From positions 186,001-250,000 of the forward strand of contig CP002916.1 of the NCBI GenBank assembly GCA_000350305.1: a stretch of DNA of 64,000 nt, given 5' to 3'. Shown here piece by piece: positions 14,147 through 23,568 of the stretch. Below the pieces are notes generated by a model. The model was given only the letters and a program-made list of their open reading frames with translations. It searched no databases and had not been told where the DNA came from. Position 1 is the first letter of the stretch. Each line of letters opens with the position of its first letter. A program made the translations under genes and the position numbers. The DNA comes from Thermoplasmatales archaeon BRNA1 (GTDB lineage: Archaea > Thermoplasmatota > Thermoplasmata > Methanomassiliicoccales > Methanomethylophilaceae).

Positions 14147-14177
14147 GTAGGTCTTGTACTTGGATCGGTGATTGTCT

Positions 14178-14717
14178 ATGGACGCAGGAAAGAAGCGTTG
14201 CTAGGTCATCGTCGCGGCCGCTCTCGTGGTGGTCACAGCGGGCCTGGTGTGCCTCCTCGACCTGAACGACGGTTCACTGAGCGTCAGCGGACGTTCGGTA
14301 AAATACGTCCCCACGGGATCCATGGACGGTCACGTGACCGAGTACGACATCGACAGCTTCCCCGCGAAGACCCTGGTGACGGTGAAGGACGCCGACATCG
14401 GGGACGTGGAGATCGGGGATGTCGTGGTGTTCGACAACAACGGCATCACAACCGTGCACCGCTGTATCGGCATCGGCACGGATGCGCAGGGGAACCTGTA
14501 TCTCACGTGCAGAGGAGACGCAAACTCCACACTGTCCACCGAGACGGTGCATGCCGGGGACGTCGAGGGCATCGTGGTCGGGACCTCCCACTGGATGGGA
14601 GTCCTGGTCGGGTTCGTCAAGAACAGCACGATCCTGTTCGTGGCGGTGATAATCGTCCTCTGCGTGATGGCCGTGACCGTCAAGGACATGGTGGTCATGA
14701 TGAGGAATAAGGAGTGA
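14178..14717 (+). CDS. Type I signal peptidase (archaeal/SipW type) with in-frame TAG at codon 9
   Basis: With TAG at 14202-14204 read as an amino acid, this is a 179-aa signal peptidase. It has a basic N-terminus (G-K-K-R-C), a first membrane helix at about residues 10-28, the catalytic Ser in P-T-G-S-M (S48), a His in T-V-H-R-C (H94) and the acidic R-G-D-A-N motif (D114). These give the Ser-His-Asp set of archaeal and ER-type enzymes. A second helix lies at about 150-170. The ATG at 14178 has GGTGAT at a normal distance. Starting after the amber would need a GTG (14226) inside the first helix and would lose the basic anchor. The adjacent gene is probably its substrate. Confidence 0.8.
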
Positions 14718-14721
14718 GGGA

Positions 14722-15407
14722 ATGAGCGCAGAAGTCAGCTACAGGAACAGGACGGTCATCCTCCTTGTTGCGATGATTGCCATTGCGGCGGCATGCGTGG
14801 GCGTAGCCCTGGCTAACGTTGTATCCACGGTCAGTTCCACCGACAACACGGTCTCTGCCGACTACATCTCCCTGGACATCTACAATGTCTCCGGCGACAC
14901 CGCTATTTCGGATTCCCTCGACTCCGGAAGTCTGGCGTTCACATACACCACCTCCAACGGGGTCATCACCATAGACGGTGCCTCGCCACTGTCCTTCATC
15001 GCTTCCGGCAGCTACTATCTCAAGGCCAGCAGCAACCAGAACTACTCTGTCTACCTGAGGGCATCGTATTCCCTCGACGAGGCCGCAATCCAGGCCGATT
15101 CTCTCGATGTTGCTACCGTCAAGGAGAATGTCCTTGCGGTCATTAAGTACATGACCCTAACCCTGACCCCGTCTCCGGGCCTGCAATCTCCGAGCAGATG
15201 AGTCTTGACGCCCCCAGTGACAGTGTCACGCTCAGTCCGAATGCGAACTACGGAATCGCAATCACCGTTCAGTCCCCTTCGTATTCCTTGTACGCCCTGC
15301 CTGACATCGAGGAGTACATCAAGTACATCGTTCTCGATTTCCGTTGCGCATGGGTCGATATCTACAACGGTGCCAGCGGATACGGAAGCCTCAACAGTCT
15401 CCCCTGA
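14722..15407 (+). pseudogene. Secreted TasA/camelysin-like protein, frameshifted
   Basis: The first frame starts at ATG 14722 after GGAGTGAGGG. It encodes a signal-peptide-like N-terminus (R-N-R-T-V then a helix at about residues 11-31) followed by V-S-S-T-D-N-T-V-S-A-D-Y-I-S-L-D-I, the pattern seen after the cleavage site in SipW-dependent proteins. This frame ends at TGA 15199-15201. A second frame, -1 relative to the first, runs without stops from before 15165 to TGA 15405-15407 and continues the same composition. Joining them near the C-rich repeat at about 15155-15175 gives roughly 226 aa. It may be a one-base deletion, a sequencing error or programmed frameshifting. Confidence 0.6.
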
Positions 15408-15543: not shown

Positions 15544-18500
15544 ATGTATCTAAAGCAGATTGAACTGGAGAATTTCAAATCGTTCGGAGGGAAGGTCACC
15601 ATTCCCATGATGGATGGGTACATGGCCATCACCGGTCCGAACGGGTCCGGAAAGTCGAACATCGGCGATGCGATCATGTTCGTTCTCGGGCCCAAGAGCC
15701 CGAAAGCGGTCAGGGCCGGAAGGATCCCCGACCTGGTTTTCAGCGGAGGAGCCAACAAGGCGAAGGCCGATTACATGAAGGCCACCCTCGTCTTCGACAA
15801 CACGGACAGGGTAATGCCCTGGAACGCCGACGAGGTCAGGCTCACCCGCTACGTCAAGCTGAAGGGCGAGGACAAGAGCGATTACACATCCTACTTCTTC
15901 ATCAACGACACCAAGGCAACCCTCGGCGACTTCGACACCCTGCTCTCCAAGGCGAGGATCAGCGCCGACGGATACAACATCGTGCAGCAGGGAGACGTCA
16001 CCAACATCGTCAGGATGGGGAGCGTCGAGAGGAGGAGGATCCTGGACGGGATCTCCGGAATCGCAAGCTTCGATTCCGACATCGACAAGGCCGAGAACGA
16101 GAAGGAGGAGGCCACTGCCAACCTGGACCGCATCTCGATTATCCGCGGGGAGAAGGAATCCCAGCTGAAATCCCTGGAGAAGGACCGCGAGCAGGCGAAG
16201 ATCTACCTCGAGCAGAAGGAGAAGCTCGACATCGCCAAGGCACAGCTCGTGGTCAGGCAGCGCGACAACGAGAAGGCCACCCTCGACGGGATCAACACCT
16301 ATGTCGCACGCCTGCAGAACGACGTCGACGAGCTGGCCAAGAAGAAGGCGGCGAAGAGGCTCGAGGCAGACGAGAACGACAGGGCCATCGAGGCAAAGGA
16401 GAAGGAGATCGAGGACCACACCGGTCCCGAGTACAGGCAGGTCAAGAACGACGTCGAGGAGACCAAGGTCAAGGTCGCCACCGAGAGGGAAAGGAAGGCC
16501 GATGCCCTCCTCGAGGCCGAGGACCAGAAGAACTACCGCCAGGAACTCGCGGACGATATCGACGCCAACCGCGGACAGTACAGCGAAGTGGCCCAGAACA
16601 TCGCAGACCTTCAGTCGCAGCTGGATTCGATCACCGCAGAGAAGAAGGCCGCCCAGAAGCAGGCCGAGGACCTCGGCAGGGAGACCGCCAGCCACGGCGG
16701 GGAGATGACTCAGATCCAGAAGAGGATCGAGGAGCTCGACAGGGCCATCGACCAGTTCGGAGCCGAGGACCAGCAGGCGAAGGCCGACGCGGCATCAGCC
16801 GTGTCCGTATCCGAGACCGCGGAGATCGCCCTCGCCAACGCCGAGAGCGCCGTCGAAGCGGCCAAATTCGAGGTCAAGGACGCCGAGTACAACCTGGCGG
16901 AGGTCAAGAGGGCGGCCGGCCCGGACGACGCCGAGGAGCTCGGGAAACAGGTATTCGCATTCAAGCAGAAGGAGGCCTCCCTGGAGAAACAGGAGGAGGA
17001 CCTCCGTGCAATCGCCGAGAAGAAGAATGCGGAGTTCAACCGCCTCAACGCGGAGAAGAGGGCGTCCGATGCCGCCAACAGCGGTTCCGAGGCGCTCTCG
17101 CAGATCCTCGCCCAGAGGGACTCCGGGCAGATCTCCGGCATCATCGGGGCGGTGTCCGAGCTGGCCACTGTCGACCCCGGATACGAGACCGCCCTCTCCG
17201 TGGCGGCCGGTAACAAGATGCGCGCAGTCGTCGTGAAGGACGACGACGTCGCCGCAACCTGCATCAAATTCCTGAAGGACAACCGCCTCGGAAGGGTCAC
17301 CTTCCTCCCCATCAACAAGATGATGCCCGGGAAGCCCCGCGCCAAGGCGATCATGGTCCTCAAGCAGACCGAGGGGTACGCCACCGACTTCCTGCAGTAC
17401 AAACCGGAGTACGAGAACGTGTTCTGGTACGTCCTCGGGGACACCCTCGTGGACTCCAGCATCGACCACGCCCGCTCCATCATGGGAGGTATCAGGATCG
17501 TCACCAAGGCGGGTGAGCTCATCGAGGCCTCCGGCGCAATGACCGGAGGAACCCTCAGCACCAAGAACATCCCCAAGTTCGGAGCATCCTCCCAGGGGGA
17601 GCTGTCCAGGGCTGCCGAGGAACTCTCCAAGGCGAACGCCGCCCTTGAGGGTGTGCGCGCCGAGCTCAGGGCCATCCGCGACCAGATCAGGGAGACCGAC
17701 GACCTCATGCGCAGGGCCAACTCCAGCAACGCCGAGAACAGAGGCAAGGTCGCGGCGGCGGAGGCATCGCTCAACGCCGCCAAGAAGGCGCTCGCCAAGG
17801 CGGAGGAGGACCTCGCACGCATGAGGAAGTCCACCGCGGAGGCGACCGAAACAGTCAACACCAGGCAGGCAAACGCCGCCGTCATCGCGGAGAAACTGGA
17901 GAACATGCGCAACGAGCGCACCGCCGCCCGCGAGAGGCTCGCGGCGATTGCCCCGGCCGACCTGCAGGAGCGCATCGAGAAGGCGCGCAACGCCGTTTAC
18001 GAGCTCACGCAGAAGGAGAATGACCTCCTCAGCCAGATCGGAGGGGCCAGGGCCGAGCTGTCTGGATTGGACAAGCAGAAGGAGGCCCTGGACGACCAGG
18101 TCTCCAAGACCGACAAGGCCATCGCCGAGGCGGAGGCCGAGGCCGGGCAGCACCAGAAGGCCATGGACCAGCTGGATATCGAGCTCGCGGCCAAGAAGAA
18201 GATCCTCTCCGACATGGAGTCCGGGGTGGAGGACCTCAAGTCCGCCCGCGATGCCCTGGTCGAGAGGAAATACAAGCTCGAGGGAGAGGTCGACAAGGCC
18301 CAGGGAGACATCGAGACCAAGAACGGAATACTCCAGAGCCAGCAGGCGCAGGTGCTCATCCACCAGCAGACGCTCCAGGGATTCGAGGAGGAGATCAAGC
18401 AGATCACCGTCGAGATCCTCGAGCCCATCCCCGCCGAGGAGACCCTCAAGAGGACCATCAGGACCTGCGAGGGAACCATCGGGGAGCTCGGCAACATCAA

Positions 18501-19152
18501 CCTCCGTGCCATCGAGGACTACGACGTCCGCAGGGCGGAGCTGGAGGAGCTCCTCGGGGAGGTCGCCCGCCTCAACAAGCAGATCGACGAGCTCAACAAG
18601 CTTACCGACGAACTCACCGCGAAGAAGAAGGGCCTGTTCATGGAGGCCTACACCGCGGTCAACGACAACTTCAAGCGCATCTACACCCAGCTGTCCGGAG
18701 GCGGAGAAGGCTTCATGGACCTGGACAACCCGGAGGATCCCTTCGCGGGAGGACTCCAGATCAACGCAAAACCCAGGAACGGCAAGCTGCTGAGGCTCGA
18801 GTCCCTCTCCGGAGGGGAGAAGTCCCTCACTGCACTGTCGTTCATCTTCGCCATCCAGGAGTACCAGCCCTCGCCGTTCTACGTGCTCGACGAGGTCGAC
18901 ATGTTCCTGGATGCGGTGAACTCCGAGATGGTGGCCAAGAGGGTCAAGGAGAGCTCGCGCAAGGCGCAGTTCATCCAGGTCTCCCTCAGGAAGGTCGCGC
19001 TCACCGTCGCGGACCACCTGATAGGGGTCACCAGGCCCCCGTCGGGGATCAGTAAGATCATCATGCAGCCTGATATCAGCGAGGTCTCCAAGTACGAAGA
19101 GGAGGCCCTCAGGAGGCAGAAGGAACAGCAGGACAGCGAGGTCCAGCAGTGA
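15544..19152 (+). CDS. smc: Chromosome segregation protein SMC
   Basis: A 1202-aa SMC ATPase that organises and compacts the chromosome. Walker A is G-P-N-G-S-G-K-S-N (residues 31-39), followed by a long coiled coil, a hinge around residues 515-680 with conserved Gly-rich turns (G-A-M-T-G-G-T), a second coiled coil, the ABC signature L-S-G-G-E-K-S near 1087 and Walker B with L-D-E-V-D near 1113-1118. The length is typical. scpA starts within its stop and scpB follows, so the window holds the full condensin operon. A TATA-like TTTTAAATA lies at about 15462-15470. Confidence 0.96.
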   Translation: MYLKQIELENFKSFGGKVTIPMMDGYMAITGPNGSGKSNIGDAIMFVLGPKSPKAVRAGRIPDLVFSGGANKAKADYMKATLVFDNTDRVMPWNADEVRLTRYVKLKGEDKSDYTSYFFINDTKATLGDFDTLLSKARISADGYNIVQQGDVTNIVRMGSVERRRILDGISGIASFDSDIDKAENEKEEATANLDRISIIRGEKESQLKSLEKDREQAKIYLEQKEKLDIAKAQLVVRQRDNEKATLDGINTYVARLQNDVDELAKKKAAKRLEADENDRAIEAKEKEIEDHTGPEYRQVKNDVEETKVKVATERERKADALLEAEDQKNYRQELADDIDANRGQYSEVAQNIADLQSQLDSITAEKKAAQKQAEDLGRETASHGGEMTQIQKRIEELDRAIDQFGAEDQQAKADAASAVSVSETAEIALANAESAVEAAKFEVKDAEYNLAEVKRAAGPDDAEELGKQVFAFKQKEASLEKQEEDLRAIAEKKNAEFNRLNAEKRASDAANSGSEALSQILAQRDSGQISGIIGAVSELATVDPGYETALSVAAGNKMRAVVVKDDDVAATCIKFLKDNRLGRVTFLPINKMMPGKPRAKAIMVLKQTEGYATDFLQYKPEYENVFWYVLGDTLVDSSIDHARSIMGGIRIVTKAGELIEASGAMTGGTLSTKNIPKFGASSQGELSRAAEELSKANAALEGVRAELRAIRDQIRETDDLMRRANSSNAENRGKVAAAEASLNAAKKALAKAEEDLARMRKSTAEATETVNTRQANAAVIAEKLENMRNERTAARERLAAIAPADLQERIEKARNAVYELTQKENDLLSQIGGARAELSGLDKQKEALDDQVSKTDKAIAEAEAEAGQHQKAMDQLDIELAAKKKILSDMESGVEDLKSARDALVERKYKLEGEVDKAQGDIETKNGILQSQQAQVLIHQQTLQGFEEEIKQITVEILEPIPAEETLKRTIRTCEGTIGELGNINLRAIEDYDVRRAELEELLGEVARLNKQIDELNKLTDELTAKKKGLFMEAYTAVNDNFKRIYTQLSGGGEGFMDLDNPEDPFAGGLQINAKPRNGKLLRLESLSGGEKSLTALSFIFAIQEYQPSPFYVLDEVDMFLDAVNSEMVAKRVKESSRKAQFIQVSLRKVALTVADHLIGVTRPPSGISKIIMQPDISEVSKYEEEALRRQKEQQDSEVQQ

Positions 19153-20810: not shown

Positions 20811-22433
20811 ATGTCTTTCGTGGACAGGATCAACGGTGTATCGGACAACAACAACGTCCGCAAGGCCTGGCTGGGTCTCGCCGTGGCGGTGTTCGTCTGC
20901 ATCATCCTGGTCCCCTCCATGTTCGTCGTCACAAAGCTGTTCACCGAGTGGGGCCTGGTCTCCGATGTCCTCGGCTCCGACCAGATGTCGGTGATCCTGG
21001 GAGCGGTCTGGAACTCGTTCTCCCTCGCGATCCTCGTCACCGTGGTGGACATCATCGTCGGACTGCCCATCGCATGGATCATGGTGAGGAGGGATTTCGG
21101 CGGGAAGAAGCTACTGGACACCCTTCTGGATCTGCCGCTGGCGTTCCCGACCGCCGTCCTGGGTCTCTCCGTCCTGATGTTCTGGGGAGCTCCCGAGGGG
21201 GTCACCATCCCCAGCCTCGGCCTCGGTATCGGGCCCTATGCGATGCTGATCCTCCTGCACTTCATCTTCACCTACCCGTATATGGTGAGGTCGCTCTCCG
21301 CGATCCTGGAACAGATCGACTCCTCCTATGAGACGGCGGCCATGACCCTGGGTGCCAGCAGGTTCACCGCCGTGAGGACGATCACCCTGCCCCTGTTCAG
21401 GGCGGGACTGGTCACGGGATTCATCCTCTGTTTCTCCAGGTCCCTTTCGGAGACCGGGGGGACCCTCATCGCCCTGGTGCTGATGAAGGTAGACACCACC
21501 TTCTTCACCGGACCTACATACATCTCCGCCGCCCACGGAGGAGACATGGGGCCGATGATCCTAATCAGCGTCATCATGATCGCCATCGCGCTCCTTCTGC
21601 TGGTGGTCGTGAAACTGCTGGTCACCAAATTCCACATAAAATGGGACAGGATCCTGCCGGATCTGGGAAGGAAGCTGTCAAGGGGACTGGTTCCCAAGGC
21701 CAAGGACATCTCGGCCATCGTATTCCTGTTCCTGGTGATCCTGATCCCGTCGTTCTATATCTTCGCCTACCTGGCGGAGCCCGCCTCCATCGAGACCGGG
21801 GAGTTGCTCGGTTCGATCGGGATGTCGTTCCTCGTCGCGGGTGCCGCAGTGGCGTTCGACATCATCTTCGGAATCCCTGTGGCGATGTACATCGCCAGGC
21901 ACAAGAAGGAGAAAGCCGCGGGAATCGTGGATACTCTTGTGAACATCCCGCTGCTGGTCCCCACCACTGCACTGGGATTCTCACTCACCCTGTTCTGGGG
22001 AGCCGCCCACGGGAGCGGTCCCTATGCGGTCGCCCTGGTCATACTGGGTCATATCGCGTTCACCTATCCTCTGGTGGTCAGGAACATCACCGGGGCCGTG
22101 GAGGAGGTGGACCCCTCGTACGAGGAGACCGCCATGACTCTGGGCGCAAAGCCGTTCCAGGCGTTCTACAAGATCCTCCTGCCGGTCATCAAGTCGTCCG
22201 TCATAGCGGGAGGCATCCTCGCGTTCACCAGGAGCCTTGGGGAGACCGGTGCGACCATCGCGATCGCTCCCGATGTGCGCACCGTGCCCTGCTACATCGT
22301 GGAGCTGGTGAAGGCCGGCCACACCCATTACGCCGAGGCCGCGATGTGTTCCATCGTCCTGATCGCCATCTGCTTCGTGTTCCTCGTCGCGGTCAGGGTG
22401 CTCACCAAGGGGAAGGAGGCGAGACATGACTGA
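20811..22433 (+). CDS. ABC importer permease, two fused permease domains
   Basis: A 540-aa protein of two tandem six-helix permease halves. Each half carries an EAA loop for the ATPase: E-Q-I-D-S-S-Y-E-T-A-A-M-T-L-G-A near residues 168-183 and E-E-V-D-P-S-Y-E-E-T-A-M-T-L-G-A near 430-445. The fold is that of the molybdate/sulfate/iron(III)/thiamine permease superfamily (FbpB-type fusions). The substrate cannot be read from sequence and no binding-protein gene is present. The start is ATG 20811; a GTG at 20802 is possible. It overlaps the ATPase gene by 8 bp. Confidence 0.85.
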   Translation: MSFVDRINGVSDNNNVRKAWLGLAVAVFVCIILVPSMFVVTKLFTEWGLVSDVLGSDQMSVILGAVWNSFSLAILVTVVDIIVGLPIAWIMVRRDFGGKKLLDTLLDLPLAFPTAVLGLSVLMFWGAPEGVTIPSLGLGIGPYAMLILLHFIFTYPYMVRSLSAILEQIDSSYETAAMTLGASRFTAVRTITLPLFRAGLVTGFILCFSRSLSETGGTLIALVLMKVDTTFFTGPTYISAAHGGDMGPMILISVIMIAIALLLLVVVKLLVTKFHIKWDRILPDLGRKLSRGLVPKAKDISAIVFLFLVILIPSFYIFAYLAEPASIETGELLGSIGMSFLVAGAAVAFDIIFGIPVAMYIARHKKEKAAGIVDTLVNIPLLVPTTALGFSLTLFWGAAHGSGPYAVALVILGHIAFTYPLVVRNITGAVEEVDPSYEETAMTLGAKPFQAFYKILLPVIKSSVIAGGILAFTRSLGETGATIAIAPDVRTVPCYIVELVKAGHTHYAEAAMCSIVLIAICFVFLVAVRVLTKGKEARHD

Positions 22434-23568
22434 GATAGTCCTGGAGGACCTGGTGAAGACCTACGGGGGCGACATCAAGGCCTCCGATCACCTGAGTCTT
22501 ACCGTGAGGGACGGGGAATACCTCTGTCTCCTGGGACCCACTGGTTCCGGGAAGACAACGGCACTCAGGGAGATATGCGGGCTCACCGTCCCGGACAGCG
22601 GGAGGGTGCTGTTCGACGGCAGGGACATGTCCGATGTCCCCATCTCCGTTAGGAAGGCCACCATGCTCTCCCAGAAGTACGCCCTGTTCCCCAACATGGA
22701 CGTCTACGGCAACGTGGTGTTCTCTCCCGTGATAAAGGAATGGAGCGAGAAGGACACCCGCCAGCTTGCCACATCCATGATCGACATGGTCCACATGTCG
22801 AAGAAGATCCACAACATGCCCGGGGAACTGTCCGGAGGCCAGCAGCAGAGGACCGCTCTGGCAAGGGCTCTGTCCTCGGAATCCAAGATTCTCCTCCTGG
22901 ACGAGCCGCTGAGGGCGCTGGACGCCAGGCTCAGGATAGAGCTCAGGAAGGAGTTGAAATCCATGGTCCAGGAGATGGGCCTGACATCCATCCACGTCAC
23001 CCACGACCAGGACGAGGCCCTGGAGGTCGCCGACCGCATCGCCATCATCCGCAGGGGGAAGATCGTGCAGGTGGGGACGCCGACGGAGGTGTTCCAGAAC
23101 CCTGCCACCCCGTTCGTGGCGAATTTCTTGGGACGTTCCAACAACTTCACGGGGAAGCTCATCGCGTCGGACACGGACCGTTCTGTGATCGAGATCGCAC
23201 CCGGCATCCTGATAAGTGCCAGATCCACGGATATTCCTCCCGGGGAGGACGTCGTGGTCACCGTCAAGGTGGGAGCGACCGTCCCGGAGATCGTCGGTGC
23301 GAAGGTCGATGTGCAGGACAAGCACAAACCCGACGTGCTTCCCGAGGGGTACTTCTAGGGAACCGTCAGGAGGGTGCTGTACGAGGGGACAACCATAACG
23401 ATAGAGGTGGAGGTCGAAGGCATAGGCCTGGTGAGCGCGAAGCGTTCGTCCAGGAGGTACGAGGCATACAACCAGGGGGACATAGTCGCGGTCACCTGGC
23501 AGCCGGAGAAGGCATCCGTCTTCCGCATCCCGGAGAACGGATTGGAGGACGAACTGAGGCTTGACTGA
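22426..23568 (+). CDS. ABC importer ATPase with in-frame TAG before its TOBE domain
   Basis: A CysA/FbpC/PotA-type ATPase. Walker A is G-P-T-G-S-G-K-T-T (residues 36-44), the signature L-S-G-G-Q-Q-Q-R is near 137-144, Walker B I-L-L-L-D-E-P-L near 155-162 and the H-loop H-V-T-H-D-Q near 189-194. A TAG at 23356-23358 (codon 311) falls in the C-terminal regulatory region. The same frame continues for 69 codons to TGA 23566-23568, reading G-T-V-R-R-V-L-Y-E-G and ending in a typical TOBE strand pattern. The sibling ATPase downstream has an equivalent uninterrupted TOBE domain. Read-through therefore gives a normal 380-aa protein. No ribosome site precedes the downstream part. Confidence 0.82.
23212..23224 (+). 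repeat. Recurrent DNA word ATAAGTGCCAGAT, copy 1
   Basis: An exact 13-base copy inside the first ABC ATPase gene. It is identical to the words at 38242-38254 (reverse) and 55042-55054. See the finding on the recurrent AAGTGCCAGA word. Confidence 0.7.

Follow-up and report, generated by a model that had tools for sequence, protein, structure and literature searches.

In 'Ca. Methanomethylophilus alvus', pyrrolysine codons are described in 16 proteins besides the methyltransferases and TAG stops are rare (1.6%); the same account argues that an in-frame amber mutation would be stable under such conditions (PMC4153887). For ISO4-H5, 46 genes with pyrrolysine codons are reported (PMC5011839). As far as excerpts of these two accounts go, both organisms resemble the gut-type Thermoplasmatales archaeon BRNA1 in having in-frame TAG in ordinary genes whose homologues are often TAG-free, but differ from it in that the excerpted gene lists name no signal peptidase; in BRNA1 the TAG is at codon 9 of such a gene. 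A literature search on pyrrolysine and signal peptidases gave apparently nothing about an archaeal amber-containing signal peptidase. The second relevant system is the SipW–TasA pairing of Bacillus (PMC10269814, in excerpt), in which an archaeal-like signal peptidase (NCBIfam NF046067) lies beside the gene of an exported protein, as in BRNA1. The BRNA1 protein differs in matching this model of SipW of Bacilli at 31.7 bits (E 1.1e-7), far below the curated cut-off of 190 bits, and in that its substrate is presumed.

The window, the whole 64,000-nt stretch analysed here, corresponds to positions 186001–250000 of one 1,461,105-base contig. Within it, the frame opening at ATG 14178 is interrupted solely by a TAG at codon 9 before it reaches the TGA at 14715–14717, and this TAG is very probably read through as pyrrolysine. 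The features concerned are as follows:

14167..14172, + strand: Shine-Dalgarno-like GGTGAT, read from the sequence, ending 5 nt upstream of ATG 14178
14178..14717, + strand: putative gene of a SipW/Sec11-like signal peptidase, 179 residues if pyrrolysine is counted at the TAG, stop TGA 14715–14717 (ORF, profiles, alignment, model, structure match)
14202..14204, + strand: in-frame TAG, codon 9, between the basic tail and the first membrane helix (read from the sequence)
14205..14258, + strand: first hydrophobic helix, residues 10–27 (sequence reading; helix 3–29 in the model)
14226..14228, + strand: GTG, alternative start judged unlikely (inside the helix, without a clear Shine-Dalgarno sequence)
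14722..15407, + strand: gene of the presumed substrate, with an exported-protein-like N-terminus, frame-broken (Pilin_N E 0.0091, below cut-off; substrate role from position)
15544..19152, + strand: smc, constant 3' neighbour in the orthologous slot (named from recognised sequence)

The first-pass annotation had described an ATG at 14178 preceded by GGTGAT, an amber at codon 9 and then the first membrane helix, and the sequence confirms this arrangement. Codons 1–8 encode MDAGKKRC, and residues 10–27 (VIVAAALVVVTAGLVCLL) are hydrophobic without a break over 18 residues. The in-frame starts 3' of the TAG are GTG 14226, 14229 and 14247, all inside the first helix, followed by ATG 14322, whose Met belongs to the catalytic Ser-Met pair. 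An ATG with a Shine-Dalgarno sequence was found beyond the nearest upstream in-frame stop in 5/201 genes where that stop was TGA, 0/125 where it was TAA and 3/67 where it was TAG (signal peptidase included), the count having been made on 401 predicted genes, of which the script skipped 8 near stretch ends. TGA and TAA together (5/326 genes) put the frequency expected by chance at roughly 1.5%. By itself, the start signal at 14178 is thus suggestive, and the case rests on homology of the N-terminal tail and helix.

Homologues were sought in 102 genomes of the family, 27 of which gave a match, at 42 places in all, and internal stops were counted within the matched span. A single match contained one, namely the window gene; the other 41 were without TAG. 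Conservation of the TAG among homologues was accordingly rejected (1/42 matches). Since that count covers the matched region only, the N-termini were read one by one. A tail and a hydrophobic helix precede the catalytic Ser in 29 of the 30 loci read (one was unparsed, and L119 repeats L075), and the TAGs in these N-terminal loci lie solely upstream of the apparent start. The tails are mostly basic, that of L006/L007 weakly so. Eight same-genus loci likewise have the signal peptidase gene after that of a HAD phosphatase and before smc. The closest orthologue, L005, starts MGFELTKKRAVSIAAVV, as against MDAGKKRC-TAG-VIVAAAL in the window, an alignment in which the TAG would be either a one-residue insertion or opposite a hydrophobic residue. 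Homologous coding sequence therefore flanks the TAG on both sides, with eight codons only on the 5' side, and the orthologues, with their tail and helix, do not start after this position, the pattern that the first-pass annotation had named as a refutation. A scan of named genome contigs with the signal peptidase returned 80 candidates, none of them relatives; the same scan with a four-orthologue alignment gave five loci among 17 candidates, four of which are apparently contigs already in the sample; the fifth, L119, reads the same as L075.

These N-termini bear directly on the view that translation begins at GTG 14226 (or 14229) and that the ATG and TAG upstream are there by chance. An in-frame GTG is present and the frame after the TAG is open, but no clear Shine-Dalgarno sequence was seen in the 20 nt inspected before each of the three GTG codons, and a start at 14226 would shorten the hydrophobic run from 18 residues to 11. 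The codons from TAG to GTG encode a conserved helix, which the orthologues retain in full together with the tail. Because orthologues in the same pre-smc slot begin before the helix with a short tail, initiation at GTG 14226 is very unlikely.

The protein matches the NCBIfam archaeal type I model TIGR02228 (sigpep_I_arch) at 37.4 bits (E 2.2e-9), below the curated cut-off of 51.85 bits. All 15 members of the protein alignment (A2) match TIGR02228 and 12/15 match NF046067 (E 0.001 or better). Ser-Met, His and Gly-Asp motifs are present, S48 M49, H94 R95 and G113 D114 being invariant in 15/15 aligned proteins; S48, H94 and D114 we take to be the Ser-His-Asp catalytic residues of archaeal/ER type I signal peptidases. 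No Pfam family was found, and a PDB sequence search gave no match. The predicted structure (mean pLDDT 82.3) is closest among solved structures to 7p2q_A (Z 10.6, rmsd 5.7, 136 aligned; Foldseek E 1.5e-4), with 7p2p at Z 9.8, although LexA-type peptidase domains score nearly as high. These chains are presumably human SEC11C and SEC11A (the listing calls them SPC paralogues C and A); they have the fold in common over residues 1–151 of the model and differ in sequence, at 21% identity. The proposed identity as a signal peptidase is supported by both NCBIfam models and by the SEC11 match, and the product is probably an accessory SipW/Sec11-like enzyme with predicted protease activity.

The genome encodes the machinery that such a codon would need, namely PylS, PylBCD and tRNA-Pyl. 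pylS scores 262.7 bits, over its cut-off, and is adjoined by pylC and pylD, both likewise over theirs. Directly upstream of pylS a tRNA-like sequence with a CTA anticodon was read by eye as tRNA-Pyl; ARAGORN gave no report of it. PylB, also over cut-off, is encoded separately (L120, G000:C1:442315-443328), about 550 kb from the pylS-pylC-pylD cluster, unlike in the operon described in PMC5011839, of which pylB is part. An Rfam PYLIS_1 match near pylS (35.1 bits, under the gathering score of 70) lies inside a MtmB gene and is uninformative about the signal peptidase gene. No unusual RNA structure was found 3' of the codon 9 TAG (z −0.88), and such signals are described as not obligatory for pyrrolysine coding (PMC4153887).

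TAG usage was sampled over 464 kb of the genome (the window plus 20 stretches) with a purpose-written, crude gene finder, two versions of which yielded 14/401 and 13/402 genes with internal TAG. None of the 402 predicted genes ended at TAG, and 13 contained it. In a control genome from another family of the order (G048, 160 kb), TAG terminates 13/120 genes and is internal to none; in a same-genus genome (G011, 160 kb), it terminates 1/127 and is internal to 2. When TAA was made readable as a check on false calls, 9/402 genes showed an internal TAA, all at codon 132 or later, so that some of the internal-TAG calls could be false. A family match spans the TAG, however, in 12 of the 13 other TAG-containing genes: two MtmB, one MtbB, two MttB, CobN, PutP, PotA-type and heme-type ABC ATPases, GNAT, PPK2 and CehA/McbA, the PPK2-like, CehA/McbA and heme-type ABC ATPase matches being under the curated cut-off. 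The presence of MtmB, MtbB and MttB is as expected. In the PotA-type ABC ATPase (window 22426–23568) the TAG is codon 311, within the TOBE domain, and in the CobN-like gene (L055 3649–7392) it is codon 966. A frame of 587 aa whose codon 17 is TAG (L049 15894–17657) has no family match, was called by one version of the gene finder and accounts for the difference between the two. The amber proposed at the outset to lie within a gene is thus borne out, in a genome that has the pyl genes and no TAG-ending genes in the sample, and in BRNA1 TAG seems to be a normal sense codon rather than a special signal. An archaeal code in which all TAG codons are pyrrolysine was reportedly described in a 2025 Science paper.

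The gene that follows at 14722 shifts frame somewhere within about 15147–15201, through a sequence error, a real mutation or a programmed shift. Similar-looking exported N-termini occur downstream of the signal peptidase in L009, L011, L012, L013, L015 and L022; no such gene was seen in L005, L006, L007, L008, L010 and L023, where smc comes next. The position of the gene at 14722 and the analogy with the SipW–TasA pairing of Bacillus suggest that its product may be the substrate. Four same-genus genomes, one of them 99% complete, gave no signal peptidase match, so the gene seems dispensable within the genus.

Given the frame-broken neighbour, sequence error or local decay is possible. The locus might be decaying and the amber a genuine nonsense mutation, matching the break next door, and the four same-genus genomes that gave no match fit that view. 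Against it, eleven columns are invariant over the 15 aligned proteins, including S48, H94 and D114, and by that count all are kept in the window gene. Its identity to orthologues (31–43%, compared with 61–70% for HAD and 71–79% for Smc) is in line with that of the L005–L011 pair (36, 70 and 82%), and since divergence relative to HAD and Smc is similar to that of other orthologue pairs, nothing points to relaxed constraint. A TAG would, moreover, hardly terminate translation where no sampled gene ends in one, and a nonsense mutation is very improbable. That codon 9 was wrongly sequenced or assembled could be suspected from the possible error or mutation less than 1 kb away, but no other indication of a substitution error was found, and such an error is highly improbable.

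The first-pass annotation had also held that so early an amber would make secretion of the neighbouring substrate depend strongly on TAG decoding. Carried further, the TAG would be a selected gate coupling surface-protein export to pyrrolysine supply: as it precedes the membrane anchor, no protein would be made without decoding, and the accessory signal peptidase, hence surface-protein export, would be available only when pyrrolysine is. The TAG is, however, found in this species alone among the 42 matches and occurs in many unrelated genes, and a second, TAG-free signal peptidase, probably the housekeeping enzyme, is encoded near 1.9–2.2 kb of the contig (TIGR02228 24.4 bits, below cut-off). 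The claim of strong dependence is unsupported on these grounds and is further weakened by the lack of TAG-ending genes (0/402), by the lack of a match to the gene in four same-genus genomes and by the broken frame of the presumed substrate. Nothing was found in support of a regulatory role for codon 9, and a selected gate is extremely improbable.

Under the favoured reading, decoding as pyrrolysine, translation would start at ATG 14178 and the cell's PylS and tRNA-Pyl would insert pyrrolysine at codon 9. The TAG would have arisen in the BRNA1 lineage alone and be tolerated because it is a sense codon there. Assuming that the predicted first helix inserts into the membrane, the residue would lie at its cytoplasmic end, where the identity of the side chain is probably of little importance. 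Codon 9 is, so read, a real but ordinary case of the scattered pyrrolysine coding already described in relatives. The start of this gene is prone to misannotation, with GTG taken in place of ATG. A membrane protease joins the proteins probably made with pyrrolysine by archaea that have the pyrrolysine code, and the case supports TAG as an ordinary sense codon in the BRNA1 lineage, not a special signal.
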